Shown here piece by piece: positions 25,392-50,505 of a stretch of DNA of 50,653 nt. Position numbers and translations under genes: made by a program. The notes beneath the pieces are model-generated. The model was not told the DNA's origin. It ran no database searches and was given only the letters and a program-made list of their open reading frames with translations. The stretch's first letter is position 1. Every line of letters begins with the position of its first letter. Origin of the DNA: Candidatus Zhuqueibacterota bacterium (GTDB lineage Bacteria; Zhuqueibacterota; QNDG01; JABMRT01); contig JABMRT010000137.1 of NCBI GenBank assembly GCA_013202295.1, forward strand, positions 1-50,653, written 5' to 3'.

Positions 25392-25440
25392 CTGGTCGTA
25401 GGTTGTAGACTGGATCGTATTTGTGATTGTGTGTCCCGAG
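25392..25440 (+). pseudogene. Degenerate copy of butyrate kinase 3' segment
   Basis: Bases 25406-25439 match 24763-24796 of the second butyrate kinase at 29 of 34 positions, in the same codon frame (DWI..VIV.P.E). Seven more bases upstream (CTGGTCG at 25392) match 24738-24744 with a deletion between. The similarity stops near 25440. The NTF2-like gene lies between the intact kinase and this remnant. Confidence 0.7.
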
Positions 25441-25442
25441 TG

Positions 25443-25503
25443 CATGTCATTTCCGGACATGATAGATATTCTGTCCAATAGTTATCGGCTATCTAATATA
25501 ACG
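25443..25503 (+). repeat. 61-base repeat, copy A, ending at an integron-type G|TT site
   Basis: About 82% identical to 28449-28509 and about 70% to 27271-27331. All three are 61 bases from ATGTCATTTCC to the G of GTTA. An internal stem GGACA...TGTCC is kept by compensating changes. The right end reads CTAATATAACGTTA, like the R' end of an attC site, and the cassette gene starts 18 bases further on. No convincing R'' partner was found for this copy. Confidence 0.65.
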
Positions 25504-25521
25504 TTATATCACGGTAAAATC

Positions 25522-26055
25522 ATGACAAACTATGTGTATATCGCTCAGAGTTTGGACGGCTTTATTGCCGGCCCCAATGGTGAATTAGATTGGTTGGAAA
25601 ATATCGACAATCCAGAACAAAGTGATTTTGGTTTTTCAGCCTTCATGGGCACAATTGACGCTTTAGTCATGGGTAAAAATACTTTTGAAAAAGTCCTTTC
25701 GTTTGGAATGTGGCCCTATGATAAACCCGTTTTTGTAGCTAGTAGCTCATTATCTGTATTGCCATCAAGCGTTGAAGGAAAAGCATTTTTACTTAAGGGC
25801 ACTCCCAAGGACATGATTACAGGGTTACATAAAAAGGGGTATGCAAACTTATATATAGATGGCGGGGCTGTAATCCAAAACTTTTTAAGAGAAGACTTAA
25901 TCGACGAACTTATAGTTTCAACTATTCCAGTATTGCTTGGTGAAGGTATCCCGTTATTTGGTTATTTGCCGAAGCAAGTACAGCTTAAATTAGTTTGCTC
26001 AGAAGTACTGTTAAATCAGTTGGTAAAAACACGTTATCAAGTAAAGAAGGCATAA
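25522..26055 (+). CDS. Dihydrofolate reductase-family protein (RibD C-terminal domain), cassette gene
   Basis: 177 residues from ATG 25522. An in-frame upstream extension from 25423 runs through the kinase remnant and the 61-base repeat, so it was rejected. YVYIAQSLDGFIAGPNGELDWL opens the reductase fold, DALVMGKNTFEKVL is the nucleotide-side motif and YANLYIDGGAVIQNFLREDLIDELIVSTIPVLLGEGIPLF (in parts YIDGGA, LIDEL, PVLLGEGIPLF) is the RibD_C signature. It is an NADPH-dependent reductase of unknown substrate. The stop codon lies inside the R'' box of the attC site that follows, as is normal for integron cassettes. Confidence 0.83.
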   Translation: MTNYVYIAQSLDGFIAGPNGELDWLENIDNPEQSDFGFSAFMGTIDALVMGKNTFEKVLSFGMWPYDKPVFVASSSLSVLPSSVEGKAFLLKGTPKDMITGLHKKGYANLYIDGGAVIQNFLREDLIDELIVSTIPVLLGEGIPLFGYLPKQVQLKLVCSEVLLNQLVKTRYQVKKA

Positions 26056-26115
26056 CCAATTGTTCCACTGGAACCCCGCAAACAGCGCGGGCCAGTGAAC
26101 GCCATGTTATGTGTA
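26046..26115 (+). repeat. attC recombination site (integron cassette boundary)
   Basis: The site has the full attC architecture. The R'' box GGCATAAC (26048-26055) pairs over its last six bases with R' GTTATGTG (26106-26113). Between them are an unpaired spacer (CAATT against GCCAT), an L''/L' pair GTTC/GAAC with one extra-helical C, then CACTGG/CCAGTG and CCCGC/GCGGG closing on an AAACAG loop. Cleavage would fall between G26106 and T26107. Recognition is by structure; no sequence search was possible. Confidence 0.82.
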
Positions 26116-26145
26116 AAATAATAATCAAATATTTGTAGGGTAGAA

Positions 26146-27225
26146 ATGAATTTAAGAAACACATTGGCAGTCGCGCTCCTATTAGTACTTCTACTAAGCA
26201 ATTTCTCGAAAGCTACCCAAAACAGTTCCTGCAATTTACCCGATTCAATTGACATCTTTATACTCGAAGAGGCAAATCATATTTGGGATGCTTTCGGAAA
26301 AGATATCTGGCAAGGTTTTGATATCGATGATATTTCAATTTTACTTTTCCAGTCTTCTGATCAACAGTGGTTACTAAATCATCCAAATTCACCCGATGAT
26401 TTTCGCAATACAAATTATCTTAACTATTCTATTTCGATTCAATGTTCTGACTGTGAACCATTGTGGAATTACACTTCTGCTACCATATGGCCATTATATG
26501 GCAGTTGGACTACAATTCTGCCTACACATTCGGCGTGGAAATTATTTTGTGAACAACGTCATATACCTGGTTCTATATTCACGCCAGATAAATTGGTCTT
26601 GATATCATTGCACGAACGATTTCACGCGTTTCAGATGCGATGGCTCGAAGAGGACTTCAAGAATTTACTCAAAATCTCTACTTTTAATTCTCCTCCGGAA
26701 TCAAGAGAGGAAATCCTGTTAGATATCTCCGATCAATCTGAGCAGGCTGTTCTTTGTATTAAAGAGCAACAAGCCCTGTTCCAGGCTTATGTTGAGAAAG
26801 ATGCACTGATTTCCCAAAAAGATATTTCAGAATTTTTAAAGTTTAGAAATCAGAGATTAATGCTCATGAATGAGAAGGAAATTGAAACAGAAAATTTTAT
26901 GGAGTTGATTGAAGGAACAGCCCAATATATTGAGTTTCAATTGGCAGAATATCTTCAAAATGGTTATCAATCGCTCGATACTATCAATAATCATCCTGAA
27001 TTTCAAAATTATAAGAATGCAGCAGATTCACCAAACTTATCAATAAATAATGCTAAGAATGGAATATTAGAATCCAGCAGAGTCTACACAACTGGCACGC
27101 TTATGTGTCTTTTAATGGATCGTTATTCTAAAGACAAGTGGCAAATAGAACTATTTAAAAATTACCATGATAACAAAGTAAATCTTAGCAATTTGTTAGC
27201 AAACAGCATAGTGTTAGCACAATAA
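26146..27225 (+). CDS. Secreted zincin-like metallopeptidase (HEXXH), cassette gene
   Basis: 359 residues. MNLRNTLAVALLLVLLLSNFSKA is a Sec signal peptide. HERFH (H156-E-R-F-H160) is a HEXXH zinc site preceded by a hydrophobic strand (DKLVLISL), and ELIEGTAQYIEF about 95 residues later offers the glutamate third ligand (E256-G-x-A-x-Y). That layout is typical of gluzincins; the exact family is not recognised. The gene is AT-rich compared with the flanking operon. Its last codons (VLAQ and stop) fall in a 24-base sequence repeated at 27831, so the 3' end may have been altered by insertion of the next element. Confidence 0.62.
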   Translation: MNLRNTLAVALLLVLLLSNFSKATQNSSCNLPDSIDIFILEEANHIWDAFGKDIWQGFDIDDISILLFQSSDQQWLLNHPNSPDDFRNTNYLNYSISIQCSDCEPLWNYTSATIWPLYGSWTTILPTHSAWKLFCEQRHIPGSIFTPDKLVLISLHERFHAFQMRWLEEDFKNLLKISTFNSPPESREEILLDISDQSEQAVLCIKEQQALFQAYVEKDALISQKDISEFLKFRNQRLMLMNEKEIETENFMELIEGTAQYIEFQLAEYLQNGYQSLDTINNHPEFQNYKNAADSPNLSINNAKNGILESSRVYTTGTLMCLLMDRYSKDKWQIELFKNYHDNKVNLSNLLANSIVLAQ

Positions 27226-27331
27226 AAACTCCTTAATCTCGTTCCAACGCGGAGCATTTGAACGAGGTGATATGTCATTTCCATTCCAGGATGGATGTCC
27301 TGGCCGATAGGTACGGCTATCTAATATTATG
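27214..27331 (+). mobile_element. Gene-less cassette-like segment
   Basis: 118 bases lie between two G|TT sites. Its first 21 bases, together with the three before them (27211-27234), repeat exactly at 27831-27854, where the toxin-antitoxin cassette begins. Its last 61 bases are copy B of the repeat that ends the toxin-antitoxin cassette. In between is a REP-like palindrome with arms CTCGTTC (27238-27244) and GAACGAG (27260-27266). It therefore looks like a toxin-antitoxin cassette that has lost its genes. Confidence 0.55.
27271..27331 (+). repeat. 61-base repeat, copy B, ending at G|TT
   Basis: Same length and ends as the copies at 25443 and 28449, but the centre has diverged and its hairpin is different (CCAGGA...TCCTGG). 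The right end is CTAATATTATGTTAGCAG, and the GNAT cassette starts at the TT. Confidence 0.6.
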
Positions 27332-27352
27332 TTAGCAGTAGGGGCGGTAGTG

Positions 27353-27826
27353 ATGGCATATAAAATACGAGAATACAGAACGGACGATTTGGGCGGCGTT
27401 ATGTCGTCTTGGGAACATGCTAACGAGCTAGCTCATTCCTTCTTGCCTAAAGAGTTTGTGGATAAAGTACGGCACGACATCCCTAATCTGTATTTACCAA
27501 ATGCAGAGACATGGGTGGCTGACTGTAATGGAAGGGTCGTCGGCTTTATTGCCCTGATTGGGAATGAGATCGGGGCAGTGTTTGTCGAGCCGAAGTTCCA
27601 TAGCAAAGGTATCGGTAGGGCGTTAGTGGACAAAGCTCAAGAATTGCGAGGTGAGCTTGAAGTCGAAGTGTTTGAATTGAACGCTATCGGGCGGAAATTC
27701 TATTCCAAGTGTGGCTTCAGGCTTATGAATGAAAAAATACACGAAGATACCGGCAACAAAGTGTTGCGCCTAAAATTGACTGCTAACAAATCGCTCAACG
27801 TGGATCGCGAAGACACGGCCGATTAG
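27353..27826 (+). CDS. GNAT-family N-acetyltransferase, cassette gene
   Basis: 157 residues from ATG 27353; an upstream in-frame ATG at 27329 spans the recombination site and was rejected. The GNAT core is present: VGFIALIGNEIGAVFVEPKF (beta4), then HSKGIGRALVDKAQE, the acetyl-CoA pyrophosphate loop (Q/RxxGxG/A type), and FYSKCGFRLMNEK. The substrate is unknown; small-molecule acetylation is common for such cassette genes. The C-terminal tail TANKSLNVDREDTAD is encoded by the attC site itself, a typical feature of cassette proteins. Its Shine-Dalgarno (GGGGCGG) is weak. Confidence 0.85.
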   Translation: MAYKIREYRTDDLGGVMSSWEHANELAHSFLPKEFVDKVRHDIPNLYLPNAETWVADCNGRVVGFIALIGNEIGAVFVEPKFHSKGIGRALVDKAQELRGELEVEVFELNAIGRKFYSKCGFRLMNEKIHEDTGNKVLRLKLTANKSLNVDREDTAD

Positions 27827-27841
27827 CTCCGTGTTAGCACA
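27778..27841 (+). repeat. attC recombination site of the GNAT cassette
   Basis: R'' ACTGCTAAC (27779-27787) is the exact reverse complement of the nine bases GTTAGCAGT at this cassette's own left end (27331-27339), as expected when a circular cassette has integrated. Inside are AATCGCT and CGTG on the left arm and CACG and AGC on the right arm, followed by CCGTGTTAGC with the G|TT at 27833/27834. Cassette limits are therefore 27332-27833. Confidence 0.82.
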
Positions 27842-27852
27842 ATAAAAACTCC

Positions 27853-27888
27853 TTGACATTATGACGTCATGGCGTTATAATGTGTCAT
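27853..27888 (+). promoter_or_regulatory. Consensus promoter with embedded palindromic operator (toxin-antitoxin)
   Basis: TTGACA (27853-27858), a 17-base spacer and TATAAT (27876-27881) are perfect sigma-70 hexamers. The spacer holds the 10-base palindrome ATGACGTCAT (27861-27870), and a further half-site GTCAT lies at 27884-27888. This is the expected layout for autorepression by a ribbon-helix-helix antitoxin with its toxin. Confidence 0.8.
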
Positions 27889-27918
27889 AGGGTATTTCTT
27901 TATTCAAGGAGAACTATC

Positions 27919-28152
27919 ATGGCAGTTTTGAAGAAAAGAGCAACTATTTATTTCGATCCTGATATCCATCGGGTTCTGAAATTTAAATCCGCATCCACAA
28001 ATAAATCTATATCAGAACTTATTGATATTGCGATAAGATATGAATTGGCTGAAGATGAAGAAGACATTCGAACATTTAAAGAAAGAGAAAAAGAATCTAC
28101 GATATCATTCGAATCTGTTCTGAAGGATTTAAAGGATAATGGAAAAATATAA
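27919..28152 (+). CDS. Ribbon-helix-helix antitoxin (RelB/CopG-like)
   Basis: 77 residues from ATG 27919, which follows AAGGAGAAC; a start at 27880 would lie within the promoter. RATIYFDPDIHRVLKFKSASTNKSISELIDIAIRYEL (in parts RATIYFDPDIHRVL and SISELIDIAIRYEL) is a ribbon-helix-helix DNA-binding fold of the CopG/MetJ type. The charged C-terminal tail (EDEEDIRTFKEREKE...) would bind and block the toxin. It overlaps the toxin start by 14 bases and most likely represses its own promoter through the ATGACGTCAT operator. Confidence 0.88.
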   Translation: MAVLKKRATIYFDPDIHRVLKFKSASTNKSISELIDIAIRYELAEDEEDIRTFKEREKESTISFESVLKDLKDNGKI

Positions 28153-28396
28153 AATTGAATTCATAAAATCTGCTGTAAAAGAACTTAATTCTATCCCTGA
28201 TAAAGACATTAATAAAATCATTAAAAAAATTCAATCATTAGAACAAAATCCAAGACCTGATGGATGTGTTAAACTCACAGGTAAAGAACAATATAGAATT
28301 AGACAGGGACGTTATAGGATATTATATTCTATAGAAGATGATCGATTGATAATTTTTGTAGTAAAAATTGGTCATAGGAAAGATATTTATAGATAA
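28139..28396 (+). CDS. RelE/ParE-superfamily toxin
   Basis: 85 residues, the normal RelE size: YKIEFIKSAVKELNSIPDKDINKIIKKIQSL, then NPRPDGCVKLTGKEQYRIRQGRYRILYSIEDDRLIIFVVKIGHRKDIYR (in parts). The motifs LTGKEQYRIRQGRYRILY and the terminal HRKDIYR carry the Arg, Lys and Tyr residues used for ribosome-dependent mRNA cleavage in RelE. It is made with the upstream antitoxin from an overlapping frame. Such modules are frequent in chromosomal integrons and are thought to stabilise cassette arrays. Confidence 0.9.
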   Translation: MEKYKIEFIKSAVKELNSIPDKDINKIIKKIQSLEQNPRPDGCVKLTGKEQYRIRQGRYRILYSIEDDRLIIFVVKIGHRKDIYR

Positions 28397-28418
28397 TTTT
28401 AATCTTTTTAGGCAACGA

Positions 28419-28444
28419 GATCGCGTCTGTGATTGTCCATTCCG
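28419..28444 (+). pseudogene. Second degenerate butyrate-kinase 3' segment
   Basis: 26 bases match the butyrate kinase segment starting at 24770 at 21 positions, including an exact TCTGTGATTGT. It lies directly behind the RelE toxin and directly before repeat copy C, the same order as at 25392-25503. The match is short, so the call is tentative alone; it gains weight from copy A. Confidence 0.5.
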
Positions 28445-28448
28445 TGTG

Positions 28449-28509
28449 TATGTCATTTCCGGACAGGAGGGATATTCTGTCTGATCGGTAGCGGTTATCT
28501 AATATAATG
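28449..28509 (+). repeat. 61-base repeat, copy C, ending at G|TT
   Basis: About 82% identical to copy A. Internal stem GGACAG...CTGTC; the right end is CTAATATAATGTTATACC. The next cassette begins at T28510 and its first bases match its own R'' box at 30974-30983. Confidence 0.65.
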
Positions 28510-28527
28510 TTATACCCAAGTAAAATT

Positions 28528-30972
28528 ATGCAAAAAAAATTAAAAATAAAGAAGGTGAAGTTTAACAAGGATGACTATGAGGGCTATCAATATGGTCCGC
28601 TAAAAATCGAAAGATATGGTAAAAATATTATTTATTCATCAGATTGGACGCCAGATGAATTTGAAAAACATATAGAAAAAACAAAGAAAGAAAGACCAAA
28701 TCTAAAAATTCAAATTGATCAAAAAGTACAAGAATTAGTAAAAGCATTGAAATCATCAAATATACTTCATGTTTTAACTTCCATTGCCTTTCAAAATATA
28801 TTTTTTAATCCAGAAGTCGATACTGAATCTAGTTTTGAAGGTAATCAAGCATATATTGAGTTTGCTTTGAGCGTTATTACAGCACTGGAAGAGTATTCAT
28901 TTCCTGAGAAAAGCGGAGAATTGTCAGAAAAAGAAACTGACGATGAAGTTGAAGATGGCATAAACGAAAAAATCAAAAATCTAATTAAAGATATTTTAGA
29001 TACTACAATTTGGTATTTCGCTAGTGAGAATGTAGTAAAAAAAGATAGTCGCGAGAAATCAGAAATAAGATATTTATCATTAATGAATTTTTTATTCGTA
29101 CGAGGGGACTCATATAATCAACACAACCTTGAATTGATGAAAGAATTATTCACGCCTCATAATGAATTTTTAAATACACATTTTGGTATAACTATTGATC
29201 AAGTTCTAGTAATAATTAATGATATAGAACAACAGATTGAACAAAATTTAAAAAGGCAAGTCGAACAACTTACTATTTTAAAAAAGATGCATGGATTATA
29301 CATAAAATATGCTGAGGACCCGTCAAACTTTGAAGGGTTAACTTTTGAAGATTTCATGAATAATTATAAACTATTACCAGAAGTGGTTGAATATAAAAAT
29401 GAGTTAGATTTAGCAAGCGAAAATATTAAAAATATACTTTTTGAAATAGATGTTCAAACCAATAAAAAATTCATGGATAACATATCAATTTCACTTGGAG
29501 AAAACAAAGAGTTTTTAAATTTTAAAAAGAGCCCAGGGTGGCCAACTAACAATTCTTTGATTTATCAAAAACCAGTATTACGACATGAAGATAAATATTA
29601 TTGCTTTTGTCCAAAGATACTATCTGAAAACATTAAGCCACTTTTGGAAAGTTGGATACAAGAAAGGGACTCACAATATTTTGACAGGCGTTATCAAAAA
29701 ATTCGTGGAAAATATTTAGAAAATAAAGCGATGGAATATTTAGCGGCCCTATTGCCATCTTCTAATTCATATAAAAATTTGTATTATACTTATGATGAAA
29801 AGGGACAAACCATTCAGGCAGAGTGTGATGGATTAATTATTTATGATAGCAATATTTTAATTGTGGAGATGAAATCATCTCCTTTATCATTATCTGCAAA
29901 AAGAGGAGGTCTAACCTCACTAAAAGAGAATTTAGATGAAATTATTGATTCAGCTTATTCACAAGCGATGCGAACAAGAGATTATATATTTAATACAGAT
30001 GCTCCGGTATTTCGAAATGATAAAGGCGAAATTGAGTTTGAAATTAATGATAAAAACAAATACACCAATTTTTATATTATAAATGTCACACTTGCAAATC
30101 TATCGCCGATTTCATCAAATTTATACTCATTAAAGAATATAAATCTTCTGAAAGAAAGAGAATGGCCTTGGACAATATTTATAAACGATTTGAGAGTGAT
30201 TTCAGAAATTTTAGAAAATGAAACAGTTTTTTTGCTTTATTTAAGTCGAAGAATTCAGGCGAATGAGTTTCCTCAATTTCATGCTTTTGATGAACTTGAT
30301 TTTTTAATGTATTTTTTAAGTGTTGGTCTATATTTCACAGACAATGACTTTCAAGACGTTGATAAATTTATACCAAGAGGTTATACTGAAGATCTAGACA
30401 ATTACTATTTTTTTCTTGAAGGGAAAAGAAGCCATTTTGATAAGCCAAAGTTAAATGTTGATAATCGTATTATTGAACTAATTCGAGAAATTGAATCCGG
30501 AAGAAAATTTGGTTTTTCTGAGATAACTATGATCTTATTGGGATTGTGTAATGAGTCTCATCAAGAATTTTTAGATGCCCTTTCCAAGCAAATTACAAAG
30601 TCCCAATCAGATAAGAAAGACCATGATTTTTCGCTTATACTTAATGACTTTGGTTTAACAACTATAATTACTCATGATATGAACAGAGTTTATCCGAATG
30701 AAGTGGATAGTTATTGTAATTTGAAAATGTATCAAACTAAATATGACACATGGTATTGCCTTGTGGTTGATATTTCTAGCTTTCCACTAAAGACATATAA
30801 GCATAAAAGTATTAACACTACATGGAAATATGATAGTGAATTGGAAAGTAGATTAAAAGAAAAAAAAGAGAAAATACTCAGGCAAGTAAAGTCTCTGAAT
30901 ATGAAAATTGGAAGGAATGATTTGTGTCCATGTTATAGTGGAATTAAATATAAGTTCTGTTGTGGAAAATGA
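28528..30972 (+). CDS. Large PD-(D/E)XK-like nuclease protein with C-terminal SEC-C motif, cassette gene
   Basis: 814 residues from ATG 28528; an ATG at 28507 spans the recombination point and is rejected. Three regions can be seen: a helical N-terminal half (about 1-390, with charged coiled-coil stretches); a restriction-endonuclease-like core in which D434 (ECDGLIIYD) and E447-x-K449 (ILIVEMKSS) have the PD-(D/E)XK spacing, preceded by a Glu-containing helix KYLENKAMEYLAALLP; and a zinc-binding SEC-C end (GRNDLCPCYSGIKYKFCCGK). The DNA is very AT-rich, unlike the flanking operon, which points to recent transfer. Related architectures occur in phage-defence islands, so an anti-phage role is a reasonable guess, not shown. 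Confidence 0.6.
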   Translation: MQKKLKIKKVKFNKDDYEGYQYGPLKIERYGKNIIYSSDWTPDEFEKHIEKTKKERPNLKIQIDQKVQELVKALKSSNILHVLTSIAFQNIFFNPEVDTESSFEGNQAYIEFALSVITALEEYSFPEKSGELSEKETDDEVEDGINEKIKNLIKDILDTTIWYFASENVVKKDSREKSEIRYLSLMNFLFVRGDSYNQHNLELMKELFTPHNEFLNTHFGITIDQVLVIINDIEQQIEQNLKRQVEQLTILKKMHGLYIKYAEDPSNFEGLTFEDFMNNYKLLPEVVEYKNELDLASENIKNILFEIDVQTNKKFMDNISISLGENKEFLNFKKSPGWPTNNSLIYQKPVLRHEDKYYCFCPKILSENIKPLLESWIQERDSQYFDRRYQKIRGKYLENKAMEYLAALLPSSNSYKNLYYTYDEKGQTIQAECDGLIIYDSNILIVEMKSSPLSLSAKRGGLTSLKENLDEIIDSAYSQAMRTRDYIFNTDAPVFRNDKGEIEFEINDKNKYTNFYIINVTLANLSPISSNLYSLKNINLLKEREWPWTIFINDLRVISEILENETVFLLYLSRRIQANEFPQFHAFDELDFLMYFLSVGLYFTDNDFQDVDKFIPRGYTEDLDNYYFFLEGKRSHFDKPKLNVDNRIIELIREIESGRKFGFSEITMILLGLCNESHQEFLDALSKQITKSQSDKKDHDFSLILNDFGLTTIITHDMNRVYPNEVDSYCNLKMYQTKYDTWYCLVVDISSFPLKTYKHKSINTTWKYDSELESRLKEKKEKILRQVKSLNMKIGRNDLCPCYSGIKYKFCCGK

Positions 30973-46246: not shown

Positions 46247-47521
46247 ATGATTTATATGGATAAAATTGTTATCCTTGGGGGGAAAAACCTCAAAGGTGTT
46301 GTCGAGATTAGCGGTTCCAAGAACGCTGTGCTGCCCATTATGGCGTGTGCTCTCCTGGCCGAGGGTCAATATCATTTGAAAAGTGTCCCTCATTTGCGTG
46401 ATGTGCGAACGATGGTCAAACTTCTAAATTCCATTGGCTTAACCGTCCAATTCAACGAAAATGAAGTTCATATTGAATCAGGGCATGTTGCGCATTACGA
46501 AGCTCCTTATGATCTTGTGAAAACAATGCGCGCTTCTATTTATGTGCTGGGGCCGATGCTGAGCCGCTTTGGTGAAGCCAAAGTTTCTCTGCCTGGAGGA
46601 TGTGCATGGGGTCCGCGTCCCGTGAATCTTCATATTCAGGGATTGGAACAGCTTGGCGCGAAAATCACTATCGAAAATGGATACATTCATGCGAAAGCCA
46701 AACGGTTGAAGGGTGCCCGTATCCTTTTTAACATGCCGAGCGTGGGTGCCACAGGCAATCTGCTTATGGCTGCTGTGCTGGCCAAAGGGACGACCGTCCT
46801 AGAAAATGCTGCCCAGGAACCTGAGATTACGGCCCTGGCTGAATTTCTGGTGCAAATGGGCGCGAGGATTGATGGTATCGGCACATCCCATTTGGAAATT
46901 GAAGGCGTGGATAGTTTGCGTCCCGCGAGTACAGCCATTATCCCGGATCGGATTGAGGCCGGCACTTTTCTCGCGGTTGGACATATCGTGGGCGGAGATA
47001 TTCTGATCAAAAATGTGATTCCCGATCATGTGAGTAAAATCACGGAAAAGTTGATTGAGGCCGGAGCAGAAATTACTGAGGATTCGGACCAGATCCACAT
47101 CAAATCGAATGGTGTTTCCAAGCCTGTAGATATTGCGACGGCTGTGTTTCCGGGATTTCCGACCGATATGCAAGCGCAATGGATGGCGCTTATGAGCACG
47201 GCAAAGGGTTCCTCCGTAATCACAGAAAATATTTATTTAGATCGCTTTACACATGTGGCTGAATTGCAGCGTCTGGGTGCTGATATCCGGCTAGATCACA
47301 ATGTTGCTTTGGTCAAGGGTGTAAAAAACCTAAATGGTGCGCCTGTGATGTCTACGGATCTTCGGGCCAGCGCTTCCCTGATTATGGCAGGTCTGATCGC
47401 CAAGGGCCGTACTGATATTTCACGCGTGTATCACATTGATCGTGGGTATGAGCAGATTGAGGCGAAGTTGAAGAATCTTGGTGCTGAGATCTGGCGTGAA
47501 AAAGAACCCCTTGTGACGTAA
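46247..47521 (+). CDS. murA: UDP-N-acetylglucosamine 1-carboxyvinyltransferase
   Basis: 424 residues; ATG 46256 (MDKIVILGG) is an equally good start. ISGSKNAVLPIMACALL is the substrate-binding Lys-Asn motif, LPGGCAWGPRPVNLHIQGLEQLGA holds the active-site Cys (in parts GGCAWGPRPVNLH), and FPTDMQAQWMAL the catalytic Asp region. It starts peptidoglycan synthesis and is the fosfomycin target. The end (WREKEPLVT) is repeated in diverged form after the vapBC genes at 48184-48234. Confidence 0.96.
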   Translation: MIYMDKIVILGGKNLKGVVEISGSKNAVLPIMACALLAEGQYHLKSVPHLRDVRTMVKLLNSIGLTVQFNENEVHIESGHVAHYEAPYDLVKTMRASIYVLGPMLSRFGEAKVSLPGGCAWGPRPVNLHIQGLEQLGAKITIENGYIHAKAKRLKGARILFNMPSVGATGNLLMAAVLAKGTTVLENAAQEPEITALAEFLVQMGARIDGIGTSHLEIEGVDSLRPASTAIIPDRIEAGTFLAVGHIVGGDILIKNVIPDHVSKITEKLIEAGAEITEDSDQIHIKSNGVSKPVDIATAVFPGFPTDMQAQWMALMSTAKGSSVITENIYLDRFTHVAELQRLGADIRLDHNVALVKGVKNLNGAPVMSTDLRASASLIMAGLIAKGRTDISRVYHIDRGYEQIEAKLKNLGAEIWREKEPLVT

Positions 47522-47527
47522 AAATCC

Positions 47528-47563
47528 TTGATTTCACACATTGAAATGTGTAATTTGTTACAC
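47528..47563 (+). promoter_or_regulatory. vapBC promoter with two overlapping inverted repeats
   Basis: TTGATT (47528-47533), 17-base spacer, TAATTT (47551-47556). Inverted repeat ACACATT-GA-AATGTGT (47536-47551) fills the spacer and overlaps a second one, GTGTAA-TTTG-TTACAC (47548-47563). This is a plausible autoregulatory operator for the antitoxin complex. Confidence 0.65.
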
Positions 47564-47588
47564 AATTGAAAATTGAGGAGAATTGAAA

Positions 47589-47789
47589 ATGGCCACAAAT
47601 TTAGCAATAGATGATTCTCTAATTGAGGAAGCAAAAACTGTTGGTCATCATAAAACAAAAAAAGCAGCAGTAACTATTGCTTTACAGGAATACATACAAC
47701 GTCATAAACAGTCAGAGATAGTAAACCTTTTTGGGAATATTGAATACGATCAAAATTATGACTACAAAAAACAAAGAAATATCCCTTGA
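47589..47789 (+). CDS. VapB-type antitoxin
   Basis: 66 residues from ATG 47589, preceded by TTGAGGAG. MATNLAIDDSLIEEAKTVGHHKTKKAAVTIALQEYIQRHK (in parts) is the ribbon-helix-helix VapB/DUF2191 form: NLAIDDSLIEEA, then KTKKAAVTIALQEY. The C-terminal EIVNLFGNIEYDQNYDYKKQR is the toxin-binding tail seen with PIN toxins. Its stop overlaps the toxin start (TTGA). It is not fused to anything and lies 67 bases after murA. Confidence 0.88.
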   Translation: MATNLAIDDSLIEEAKTVGHHKTKKAAVTIALQEYIQRHKQSEIVNLFGNIEYDQNYDYKKQRNIP

Positions 47790-48187
47790 AGATCATCGTA
47801 GATACATGTATATGGTCGCTGGCTTTAAGGCGGGATTTTGATAATAACTCTGATGCAGTTAAAGAACTTGAAAAACTCATCCTTGATCAAAAAGTGCAGA
47901 TGATCGGTCCCATCCGGCAAGAGCTCCTATCTGGTATCCGACACAAAAAACAGTTTAACGCTCTACAATCCTATTTATCCGCTTTTCCTGATTTGATAAT
48001 AACAACTCAAGATTATGAGTTGGGTTCAGAATATTACAATACAAATAGAGAAAAGGGAATCCAGGGATCGAATACGGATTTTCTTATCTGTGCTTTATCG
48101 CATAATCATGAAATGCCAATTTATACGGAGGATAAAGATTTTATAAAGTTTTCAGAGCATATTCCGATTGTGCTACACACGCCTTAG
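47786..48187 (+). CDS. VapC-type PIN-domain toxin
   Basis: 133 residues with TTG start inside the antitoxin stop. IIVDTCIWSLALRR carries the first catalytic Asp, PIRQELLSGIR the Glu, GIQGSNTDFLICALSHNHEMPIYTEDKDF (in parts) the remaining acidic residues of the PIN active site. It is a Mg-dependent RNase, usually against tRNA or rRNA. It is followed without gap by a diverged murA tail. Confidence 0.9.
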   Translation: MKIIVDTCIWSLALRRDFDNNSDAVKELEKLILDQKVQMIGPIRQELLSGIRHKKQFNALQSYLSAFPDLIITTQDYELGSEYYNTNREKGIQGSNTDFLICALSHNHEMPIYTEDKDFIKFSEHIPIVLHTP

Positions 48188-48234
48188 AATTAGGAACCAA
48201 GAATTGGCGTGAAAAAGAGCCATTGGTGATATAA
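48184..48234 (+). pseudogene. Diverged second copy of the murA 3' end
   Basis: Reads LELGTKNWREKEPLVI and stop, against LKNLGAEIWREKEPLVT at the murA end. The last 30 bases match at 24 positions with 14 identical in a row, and three differences fall in REKEPLV codons without changing the amino acid. No upstream part of murA is present. This tail lies immediately behind vapC. Confidence 0.8.
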
Positions 48235-48244
48235 GTTGTTGAGT

Positions 48245-48320
48245 TGTCATTCCTGCAAAAGCAGGAATCCAGGGGTGAGGGTGAAGGTGGATTCCCGCTC
48301 AAGAGATTGCGGGAATGACA
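48245..48320 (+). repeat. Palindromic dispersed repeat (MITE/REPIN-like)
   Basis: 76 bases with perfect nine-base terminal inverted repeats TGTCATTCC and GGAATGACA. Inside are two hairpins: TTCCTGC/GCAGGAA and ATTCCCGC/GCGGGAAT. Repeats with the core GTCATTCC-GC-GGAATC are known from many genomes. No transposase is inside. Confidence 0.8.
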
Positions 48321-48340
48321 AGGTTAAGGTGAAAATCTTC

Positions 48341-49072
48341 ATGAGGTTGCATTTGAAAAAAGCTATTGGCTTTCTATTGATTCTACTTACAATTTTATCT
48401 TCCTGCGCGATTAATCGAATCAGCGACAAAAAAACTGTGATTACGCTTGATAAGGGCACAACTGAAAACCCTGTGACGATTTCGCTGACCCATGGCCCTC
48501 ATTGGTCTCACAAGTTAAAACCGGGACCTTTCGTTATTCATATCTATCCTCAAGTCGTGTTTTGGCTTGAAAACGATGCGGGCGATTTTATTGAAACGTT
48601 GTATATTTCAGGCGCAAATGGTCATTATGGGAACAACTCTACCAAAAGAAAATTGGATGATAAATTCTTTAGTATGTGTTTTCCTGTCTGGGCGGGTAAA
48701 CTCAAACAAGTGAATCAACCGCTCCCGACCTCCAGTAATCCCTACACTGACGCAGTCACGACCGCCACTCCGCAAGGTGATTTTGATTTAAAATTGAATT
48801 TGGGTGAAATCCCTGATTCATTTAAGATTCTATTTGAGATCAATAAATCGAGTGATTATAACGCGGTTTACACCAAAGATAACAGCGACTGGGTCGGCCA
48901 GCCTTCTGTTGTTTATGCGGTTGAAATTTGCGATATTAAGTCTGACTCGACTTATTATTTCGAGCCGGTCGGGCATGGTTCAAGAATCTCCGATAAACCT
49001 GAATTTGTCGAGGGGTTTGAGGGTGTTGATTCGGCGCTTGAGTTGGTGGAAGAGATTAGGGTGGTGTTTTAA
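48341..49072 (+). CDS. Lipoprotein of unknown function
   Basis: 243 residues from ATG 48341, preceded by AAGGTGAAAA; an earlier in-frame start at 48236 would translate the palindromic repeat and is rejected. MRLHLKKAIGFLLILLTILSSC is a lipoprotein leader with lipobox LSSC. The rest is a single beta-rich domain (FVIHIYPQVVFWLENDAGDFIETLYISG, in parts; WAGKLKQVNQPLPTSSNPYTDAVTTATP; VEICDIKSDSTYYFEPVGHGS) resembling DUF2271/flagellin-like periplasmic proteins, not firmly assigned. Its 3' end recurs at 49682-49762. Confidence 0.7.
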   Translation: MRLHLKKAIGFLLILLTILSSCAINRISDKKTVITLDKGTTENPVTISLTHGPHWSHKLKPGPFVIHIYPQVVFWLENDAGDFIETLYISGANGHYGNNSTKRKLDDKFFSMCFPVWAGKLKQVNQPLPTSSNPYTDAVTTATPQGDFDLKLNLGEIPDSFKILFEINKSSDYNAVYTKDNSDWVGQPSVVYAVEICDIKSDSTYYFEPVGHGSRISDKPEFVEGFEGVDSALELVEEIRVVF

Positions 49073-49076
49073 TCTG

Positions 49077-49099
49077 GTTCCCGGTCTCTGACTGGGAAC
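49077..49099 (+). repeat. REP palindrome 1
   Basis: Arms GTTCCC-GGTC and GAC-TGGGAAC just after the lipoprotein stop. It is the same type as 49791-49815, and a variant of 49865-49889 and 50462-50486. Confidence 0.7.
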
Positions 49100-49125
49100 A
49101 TAAAAAATATATTTGAGATGTTCAC

Positions 49126-49407
49126 ATGTTTGAGCGTATCATAAAAACAATACGAGAAAAGATCCGAACAAATCAATACGTTATAACACTACATGCTGAC
49201 GAGGAAATGGATAACGATGATTTGTCTATTTTCGATATTGAACGCTGTATTTTAAATGGTAAAATTACAGAACGAAACAAAGAAAAAGAGACCGGAGAAT
49301 GGAAATATACTGTTATTGGTCATTCCATACAGGGTTATCAAGTTGGAATGATTACAAAAATAAGCATTACGGGAAAATTGGTGATAATCACTGTATATAA
49401 ACTTTAA
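49126..49407 (+). CDS. DUF4258-family putative toxin
   Basis: 93 residues. ITLHADEEMDNDDLSIFDIERCILNGKITERNKEKETGEWKYTVIG (in parts: ITLHADEEMDND, ERCILNGKI) matches the DUF4258 fold, a compact RNase-like domain often encoded beside YgiT/MqsA-type zinc-finger proteins. It lies nine bases before the YgiT-type gene. Whether it is toxic is inferred from this pairing only. It is AT-rich relative to its flanks. Confidence 0.75.
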   Translation: MFERIIKTIREKIRTNQYVITLHADEEMDNDDLSIFDIERCILNGKITERNKEKETGEWKYTVIGHSIQGYQVGMITKISITGKLVIITVYKL

Positions 49408-49416
49408 GGTACTTTT

Positions 49417-49644
49417 ATGGTATGTGATATTTGTGGACAAAAAGGGGCACGTATTCGTCACGTTACCCGAACTTATGGTAAGGGCAGTAATTTGTTGGTT
49501 ATTGAAAACGTGCCTGTTGTTTCATGCTCTCACTGCGGTGAAAGTTATTTAACGGCTGAGACGTTGCATGAGGTTGAGCGAATCAAGCTTCATAAGTCAA
49601 GCTTAACCAAAGAACGAACAATTCCTGTTGCTGTTTTTGGTTAA
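49417..49644 (+). CDS. YgiT-type zinc-finger protein, putative antitoxin
   Basis: 75 residues. CDICGQKGARIRHVTRTYGKG and VVSCSHCGESYLTAETLHEVERI hold the two CxxC zinc-binding pairs typical of YgiT/MqsA N-terminal domains; the DNA-binding helix-turn-helix part of full MqsA is absent. With the upstream DUF4258 gene it forms a toxin-first module like mqsRA. A diverged copy of the upstream lipoprotein's 3' end follows after 37 bases. Confidence 0.8.
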   Translation: MVCDICGQKGARIRHVTRTYGKGSNLLVIENVPVVSCSHCGESYLTAETLHEVERIKLHKSSLTKERTIPVAVFG

Positions 49645-49681
49645 ATTGGAATCGATGCCTTTTAATTGAAACTTGATGAAA

Positions 49682-49762
49682 AATGCCTGAGTTTGTTGAA
49701 GGGTTTGAGGGTATTGATTCGGAACTTGAGTTGGTGGAGGGAATTAGCATAATATTCGAATG
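49682..49762 (+). pseudogene. Diverged second copy of the lipoprotein 3' end
   Basis: Reads PEFVEGFEGIDSELELVEGI and continues to a stop, against PEFVEGFEGVDSALELVEEIRVVF at the end of the intact lipoprotein (48998-49072). Many differences are at third codon positions, so this was coding sequence when it diverged. No other part of that gene is found here. The DUF4258/YgiT genes lie between the two copies. Confidence 0.82.
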
Positions 49763-49790
49763 ACCATATGCTCGATTCACATATTCCCCT

Positions 49791-49815
49791 GGTTCCCAGT
49801 CTCCGGCTGGGAACC
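49791..49815 (+). repeat. REP palindrome 2
   Basis: Arms GGTTCCCAG and CTGGGAACC around TCTCCGG, shortly after the lipoprotein tail copy, as REP 1 is after the intact tail. The duplication seems to include tail plus REP. Confidence 0.75.
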
Positions 49816-49864: not shown

Positions 49865-49889
49865 CGTTCCCAGGCAGAGCCTGGGAACG
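49865..49889 (+). repeat. REP palindrome 3 (left of transposase)
   Basis: Perfect arms CGTTCCCAGGC and GCCTGGGAACG around AGA. It is identical to 50462-50486, in the same orientation, on the other side of the transposase gene. Confidence 0.85.
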
Positions 49890-49915
49890 AGAATGTAAAA
49901 TAAAGGAGTCGTAAA

Positions 49916-50449
49916 ATAGCCAGAAGTCGGTATAAAATACTCACAGATGAAAACCGACCCTATTTTCTGACATGTTCAGTTATAAATTGGATTCCATTAT
50001 TTGGAATACCTGAGATAGCCAATCTTATCCTGGAATCTCTGAAATTCATGATCGACGAGAAACGAATTTTCCTGCATGGATATATCATCATGGAGAATCA
50101 CCTTCATATGATCGCATCAAGTGTGAACCTCTCAAAAGAAATCGGTCATTTTAAATCCTATACAGCAAGAGTCATTATTGACTTCCTCAAAGAAAACCAT
50201 TATCATGATATGTTGAAAGAATTGGCATTCTTGAAGAAAGAACACAAGCGCGATCAGACATACCAGGTATGGCAGGAGGGATCTCATCCTCAGATGATTG
50301 TCGATGAGAAAATGTTAGAGCAGAAAATGAATTATATGCATTGCAATCCTGTGCAGAAGGGGTATGTAGAAGATCCGGAGCATTGGCGATATTCGAGCTA
50401 TAGAGATTATTTAGGGCAGAAGGGATTGCTGCCCATTACAATGATTTAA
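49916..50449 (+). CDS. REP-associated tyrosine transposase (RAYT, Y1 family)
   Basis: 177 residues if read from ATA 49916. An AAAGGAG ribosome site stands seven bases before that ATA, and the protein then begins ARSRYKILTDENRPYFLTCS, which is the family's normal N terminus, so the start seems to have changed from ATG to ATA; the first in-frame ATG (50048) would remove 44 conserved residues. HUH-type motif is ENHLHMIAS (HxH), the probable catalytic Tyr lies in FKSYTARVI, and NPVQKGYVEDPEHWRYSSYRDY is the family's C-terminal block. Flanked by identical REP palindromes, its presumed substrates. Confidence 0.85.
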   Translation: MARSRYKILTDENRPYFLTCSVINWIPLFGIPEIANLILESLKFMIDEKRIFLHGYIIMENHLHMIASSVNLSKEIGHFKSYTARVIIDFLKENHYHDMLKELAFLKKEHKRDQTYQVWQEGSHPQMIVDEKMLEQKMNYMHCNPVQKGYVEDPEHWRYSSYRDYLGQKGLLPITMI

Positions 50450-50461
50450 TTTGGAATTAAG

Positions 50462-50486
50462 CGTTCCCAGGCAGAGCCTGGGAACG
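50462..50486 (+). repeat. REP palindrome 4 (right of transposase)
   Basis: Identical to REP 3 at 49865-49889, including the following AG. It lies 12 bases after the transposase stop and 20 bases before dnaE. Confidence 0.85.
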
Positions 50487-50505
50487 AGGGTAAAATTGGT
50501 TTAAC

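Follow-up and report, generated by a model that had tools for sequence, protein, structure and literature searches.

Two small gene modules in the window (the whole contig, 50,653 bases) each lie between an intact gene and a diverged second copy of that gene's 3' end. With these two included, 1.9 Mb of this genome gave five such gene tails, along with two loci where a 5' head is doubled. The paired ends, taken over the pooled cases, mostly diverged as functional genes in separate lineages before they came to reside together. On balance, each case probably marks a place where DNA from a moderately diverged relative was taken in by homology-facilitated illegitimate recombination, in which only one side is homologous. 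The genome comprises 5.15 Mb in 303 contigs and has assembly statistics like those of a metagenome-assembled genome (MAG); its nearest named relatives are metagenome-assembled bacteria, and MurA of the nearest relatives compared is ~70% identical.

Between 46.2 and 49.8 kb, the order is murA, vapBC, a 51-nt murA stub, a lipoprotein gene, a DUF4258/YgiT pair, and a lipoprotein stub of ~80 nt (Table 1). Gene boundaries follow simple open reading frame (ORF) rules, and several genes outside the window were named by reading, without a family search.

Table 1. Features of the two doubled gene ends and the modules between them (positions in the window).
Feature	Position	Strand	Evidence
murA, intact; 3' end 47471-47521 is the functional copy of the doubled end	46247..47521	+	TIGR01072 574.9 bits; alignment
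vapB antitoxin	47589..47789	+	PF09957 E 1.8e-18
vapC toxin (PIN domain); stop codon abuts murA relic	47786..48187	+	NF047959 E 3e-23, 82.2 bits (cut-off 80); PF01850 E 4e-7
Relic of murA 3' end; stop codon aligned; invariant residues lost	48184..48234	+	alignment
Lipoprotein gene, intact; lipobox by reading	48341..49072	+	ORF; family search: 0 families
REP-like palindrome after functional lipoprotein end	49074..49099	.	repeat family
DUF4258 protein, probable toxin	49126..49407	+	PF14076 E 7e-12
YgiT-type zinc-finger protein, probable antitoxin	49417..49644	+	TIGR03831 E 9e-16
Relic of lipoprotein 3' end; frame kept, stop one codon later	49682..49763	+	85% over 62 nt, E 5e-11
REP-like palindrome after lipoprotein relic	49789..49814	.	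88% identical to 49074-49099

The sequence-only reading from which this study started had placed a spare murA tail after vapBC and a spare lipoprotein tail after the DUF4258/YgiT pair; alignment recovered both in those places, and the observation is real. The murA pair (47472-47521 vs. 48186-48234) is 77% identical over a 35-nt core with the stop codons aligned, the gene ending in the residues NLGAEIWREKEPLVT and the relic reading ELGTKNWREKEPLVI. This pair is weak by BLAST (E 0.41 within the window); among 101,200 ungapped 17-residue windows in six frames, the spare tail scores 50 and the next best window 32, which makes it the clear best non-self match. The lipoprotein pair aligns at 48998-49059 and 49686-49747, and its E value, together with the murA window scores, rules out chance similarity of the tails. 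The murA relic starts 0-4 nt after the vapC stop codon. Beyond the stop codons, the lipoprotein copies differ over 27 nt, after which homology resumes in the REP-like palindromes, as expected of two versions of one locus.

The spare tails had also been said to keep frame and stop and to differ largely at synonymous positions. The murA stop is indeed aligned and the lipoprotein frame is kept, but the lipoprotein stop comes one codon later. Synonymous change does predominate per site (murA, pS 0.80 vs. pN 0.33; lipoprotein, pS 0.54 vs. pN 0.14), but in plain number nonsynonymous differences are as many or more. In the murA stub, LGAEIW has become LGTKNW, with the loss of residues conserved in close relatives, and one of the further stubs described below (case D) carries a frameshift; at least some stubs have thus decayed after insertion.

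Recurrence was sought piecewise in ~1.9 Mb (37%) of the same genome by searching, at the protein and nucleotide levels, for gene tails and heads repeated nearby; false matches from the antisense strand of paralogous genes were removed by eye. The five tail cases are labelled A (murA), B (lipoprotein), C (symporter), D (Wzi-like), and E (type IIG-like), and the loci with 5' heads L204 and L186. In case C, an SDF-type symporter gene (by reading) is separated from its stub by a Fic gene (PF02661; SoFic-like) and an 84-aa ORF. In case D, a secreted-protein gene lies between a Wzi-like gene (PF14052) and its stub, which has a 1-nt frameshift. In case E (by reading), a RAYT-like gene and a small ORF stand between a type IIG-like restriction gene and its stub. 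At L204, a stub of an ABC-transporter start is followed by a two-gene insert, which includes a nucleotidyltransferase-like motif without a family match, and then by the same start again on the gene itself, which is truncated further on; the two copies are 93% identical over 82 nt, with one synonymous and no nonsynonymous difference. L186 (G000:C269, whole contig) is a serial 5' case. Its order is stub, vapBC-like DUF2281/PIN pair (PIN gene broken), second stub, HicBA-like pair, and finally a four-helix-bundle-like gene of which the contig contains only the start; the two head stubs are diverged, and no further copy of the fragment was found elsewhere in the genome.

Insert sizes range from 0.5 to 1.7 kb, and stubs from 50 to 150 nt. 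The repeats flanking the inserts are 77-86% alike, with exact runs of ~14 nt, and in the cases scanned the displaced homologous segment lies on the far side of the insert. The sequence-only reading had confined the pattern to toxin-antitoxin inserts and 3' ends, which proved too narrow, since Fic, secreted-protein, and RAYT-like inserts and 5' ends also occur. Inserts are often, not always, toxin-antitoxin-like; A and B were picked by the earlier reading and L186 came from a PIN search, so this frequency is no measured enrichment. The cases come from a single genome without strain variation, were unequally sampled, and have short ends (17-28 codons each).

The divergence of the two copies bears on whether the module itself could have doubled 50-150 nt of its target on insertion, the spare copy then decaying. 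Such insertion with long target duplication has been described for restriction-modification genes in Helicobacter pylori (Nobusato et al., 2000, as cited in PMC1643837 and PMC3031569). Under this explanation, two initially identical copies come to differ through unconstrained mutation of the stub and mainly synonymous change in the gene, giving a pairwise dN/dS near one half. The pooled value for A-E, which is not resolved case by case, was 0.18 (dS 0.92, dN 0.17; bootstrap confidence interval 0.10-0.32), and the addition of one L186 head gave 0.15 (0.08-0.25). Simulated identical duplication followed by decay, with a nucleotide or amino-acid detection filter, gave medians of 0.34-0.46 and a value of 0.18 or lower in none of 960 sets. 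As the frame-blind nucleotide scan likewise recovered B-E, four of the five tail pairs, the low ratio is not a product of the protein-level search. The observed ratio and the simulation together indicate that most of the divergence between the two ends arose while both were working coding sequence, before they shared one chromosome, with an estimated synonymous divergence before insertion of ~0.75 (0.33-1.56). Target duplication with decay is therefore rejected for A-E; the two copies of L204, like the flanks of two loci found in other bacteria (L142, 50 nt, identical; L089, 145 nt, 94%), have the look of such an event. As a general account, we consider it decidedly unlikely.

The G+C content of inserts A, B, and C (0.31-0.36, vs. 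0.444 for the genome) fits a foreign origin, though low values are common for such genes.

The murA locus could be compared with sites lacking the module. In seven relatives, dnaE follows murA directly, at a distance of 11-211 bp and without a stub, and in one further relative (L066) genes read as dapF and an aminotransferase lie between murA and dnaE, again without a stub; the dnaE motif in the window lies 3.0 kb past murA, and the window contains flanking direct repeats of target sequence that are missing from the empty site. The presence of the murA stub is thus tied to the insert, and the relatives share no such old remnant, which rules out, for murA, a tandem remnant that existed without any insert. 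Module-free relatives with spare tails, which the sequence-only reading had set down as evidence against its proposal, were therefore not what was seen at murA, where the seven relatives have no spare tail. For the lipoprotein locus, no close relative was found.

The same comparison weighs on a two-step history, in which a whole foreign gene copy with its module was inserted beside the resident gene (or a tandem paralogue arose) and deletion later left no more than the last codons of the redundant copy. This would produce the same low dN/dS between the ends; however, relatives carry a single murA at this place, and two independent steps would have been needed at each of seven loci, always leaving a stub of 50-150 nt on the far side of the module. 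We regard this history as unlikely.

A site-specific recombinase acting in trans could instead have integrated small elements carrying a gene end, in the manner of islands at tRNA genes or icd. The geometry would be the same, with the element's end restoring the gene and the old end lying on the far side, and the genome does encode integron integrases. Nevertheless, the targets are seven unrelated genes, at both 5' and 3' ends, the flanking repeats are imperfect (see above), a family search recognised no recombinase in inserts A or B, and there is no attC-sized gap at the junctions, all of which makes this route very unlikely. An integron cassette specifically was rejected, as only ~0-50 nt lie between module and relic in A-C, with no palindromic site by reading and no attC-sized gap. 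One integron integrase gene lies at G000:C8:40986-41927 (TIGR02249, 451 bits, well above the curated cut-off), and a second, cut by a contig end, at G000:C241:354-1166 (369 bits). Elsewhere in the window, positions 25413-28540 resemble an integron-type cassette array, though no integrase adjoins them, comprising RibD_C/DHFR-like, unknown, and GNAT acetyltransferase genes and a ParE-type toxin-antitoxin pair, with attC-like inverted repeats between these genes at 26050-26112 (which folds with z -3.0) and 27780-27840; its long repeats (25413-25529 vs. 28419-28534, 79%) fold no better than shuffled sequences.

Activity of REP elements and their associated transposases was rejected as a general cause, because REP or RAYT sequences occur near B and E but none lies between murA and vapBC in A. 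Downstream of the lipoprotein relic, two identical palindromes (CGTTCCCAGGCAGAGCCTGGGAACG) flank a REP-associated tyrosine transposase-like gene (50048-50449; NF047646, 69.7 bits, cut-off 80) within positions 49865-50488.

In an assembly of this kind, with 303 contigs and MAGs as nearest named relatives, alleles of two strains might also have been joined in one contig. Such an artefact is extremely unlikely: seven loci show the pattern, a frameshift or the loss of invariant residues in some relics means that these are not another strain's working allele, and gene, module, and relic share no junction sequence that an assembler could use.

We therefore return to one-sided import as the preferred explanation. 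Incoming DNA would comprise a 3' or 5' gene end as found in a relative, plus the small module next to it; the homologous stretch would pair with the resident gene, and the non-homologous side would be joined illegitimately. The resident gene would remain complete, now with a foreign end and the module adjoining it, while its own end would be stranded beyond the module. Modules that are hard for cells to lose, such as toxin-antitoxin pairs, would tend to be retained. We infer the foreign identity of the gene end, the one-sided mechanism, and the role of addiction in retention. Along murA, no breakpoint or change of affinity was visible against relatives at 67-70% identity, which are too distant for a chimera scan. 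Homologous recombination between ends that are ~20% divergent is rare, which speaks against one-sided import, and L204 and L142 fit target duplication equally well.

The arrival of an element with a foreign 3' end, as first proposed, agrees with the coding divergence before co-residence and with the empty murA site; of an integrase-like element restoring the gene, there was no sign. The simpler version offered at the same time, namely two-sided homologous exchange with a relative carrying the module, fails, since it would leave no relic. Escherichia coli O157 ccdAB, a toxin-antitoxin pair likewise newly placed directly after a housekeeping gene (folA), was intended as a positive control; it has no spare folA tail, and the intergenic region has been cleanly replaced.

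Two order-level relatives, scanned over 0.4 Mb, yielded no case. In 0.9 Mb of mixed bacterial loci, one tail case (L089) and one identical-flank pair (L142) were found, and we do not claim that the pattern is special to this lineage. In L089 (2127-3885, Ignavibacteria MAG), the tail of a HEPN-like gene and ~70 nt downstream of it are doubled, and the repeats flank a DUF4143-like ATPase gene in reverse orientation. L142 (3593-6022, Bathymodiolus gill symbiont) has a 2.3-kb insert encoding a secreted protein and an IS1-like transposase; on either side of it stands the same 50-base sequence, which runs from the end of a STAS-like gene into the start of murA. Two further loci were rejected as cases: L157 is an ordinary REP-flanked RAYT, and L178 reflects a shared secretion-signal-like tail. 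In the latter, adjacent genes (5-80 and 1464-1537) have secretion-signal-like C-terminal tails with a 76-nt end that is 88% identical, perhaps a common end arising by gene conversion.

The sequence-only reading knew of no named system with this architecture. However, earlier work describes one-sided recombination and stranded old ends, as homology-facilitated illegitimate recombination (PMC5361080), and also long direct repeats flanking selfish modules, as long target duplication (PMC1643837). In Vibrio cholerae T6SS effector-immunity modules and at Rhs 3' ends, one-sided homology has been proposed to bring in a new module while the old 3' portion is kept downstream, serial events giving rise to arrays (PMC5361080). 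There, a variable toxin gene is replaced and a working immunity gene is kept, whereas here ordinary genes remain functional, the stub is useless, and 5' ends are involved as well. Homology-facilitated illegitimate recombination has been reported during conjugation in E. coli and in three transformable species (PMC3240628). The H. pylori restriction-modification insertions resemble our cases in that a selfish module lies between long direct target repeats without a transposase; they differ in that their copies are reported to be target duplications, whereas those of A-E had diverged as coding sequence beforehand.

Islands and prophages integrate at the 3' ends of protein or tRNA genes, icd being one example. 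As in our cases, the element restores the gene end and displaces the old end downstream; by comparison, our inserts measure only 0.5-1.7 kb, contain no recognised integrase, and use many target genes, including 5' ends.

No report combining toxin-antitoxin modules with homology-facilitated illegitimate recombination was found in the literature searched. As far as that literature shows, two things are new: the link with toxin-antitoxin modules beside ordinary genes, which involves 5' as well as 3' ends and serial insertion, and the codon-level test that tells import from target duplication.

These observations bear on how chromosomal toxin-antitoxin modules without a recombinase of their own move between genomes. 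They also carry a warning that such stubs need not be target-site duplications. There is a slim chance that toxin-antitoxin modules spread in this lineage by a process favouring ordinary gene ends, in which the donor end would serve as the landing address and the relic would record both the transfer and the distance of the donor. If insertions leave a readable scar, consisting of an intact gene, a module, and a diverged stub, this route could be scanned for in any genome, the divergence of the donor could be measured from synonymous sites, and one-sided import could be compared between toxin-antitoxin and other genes.
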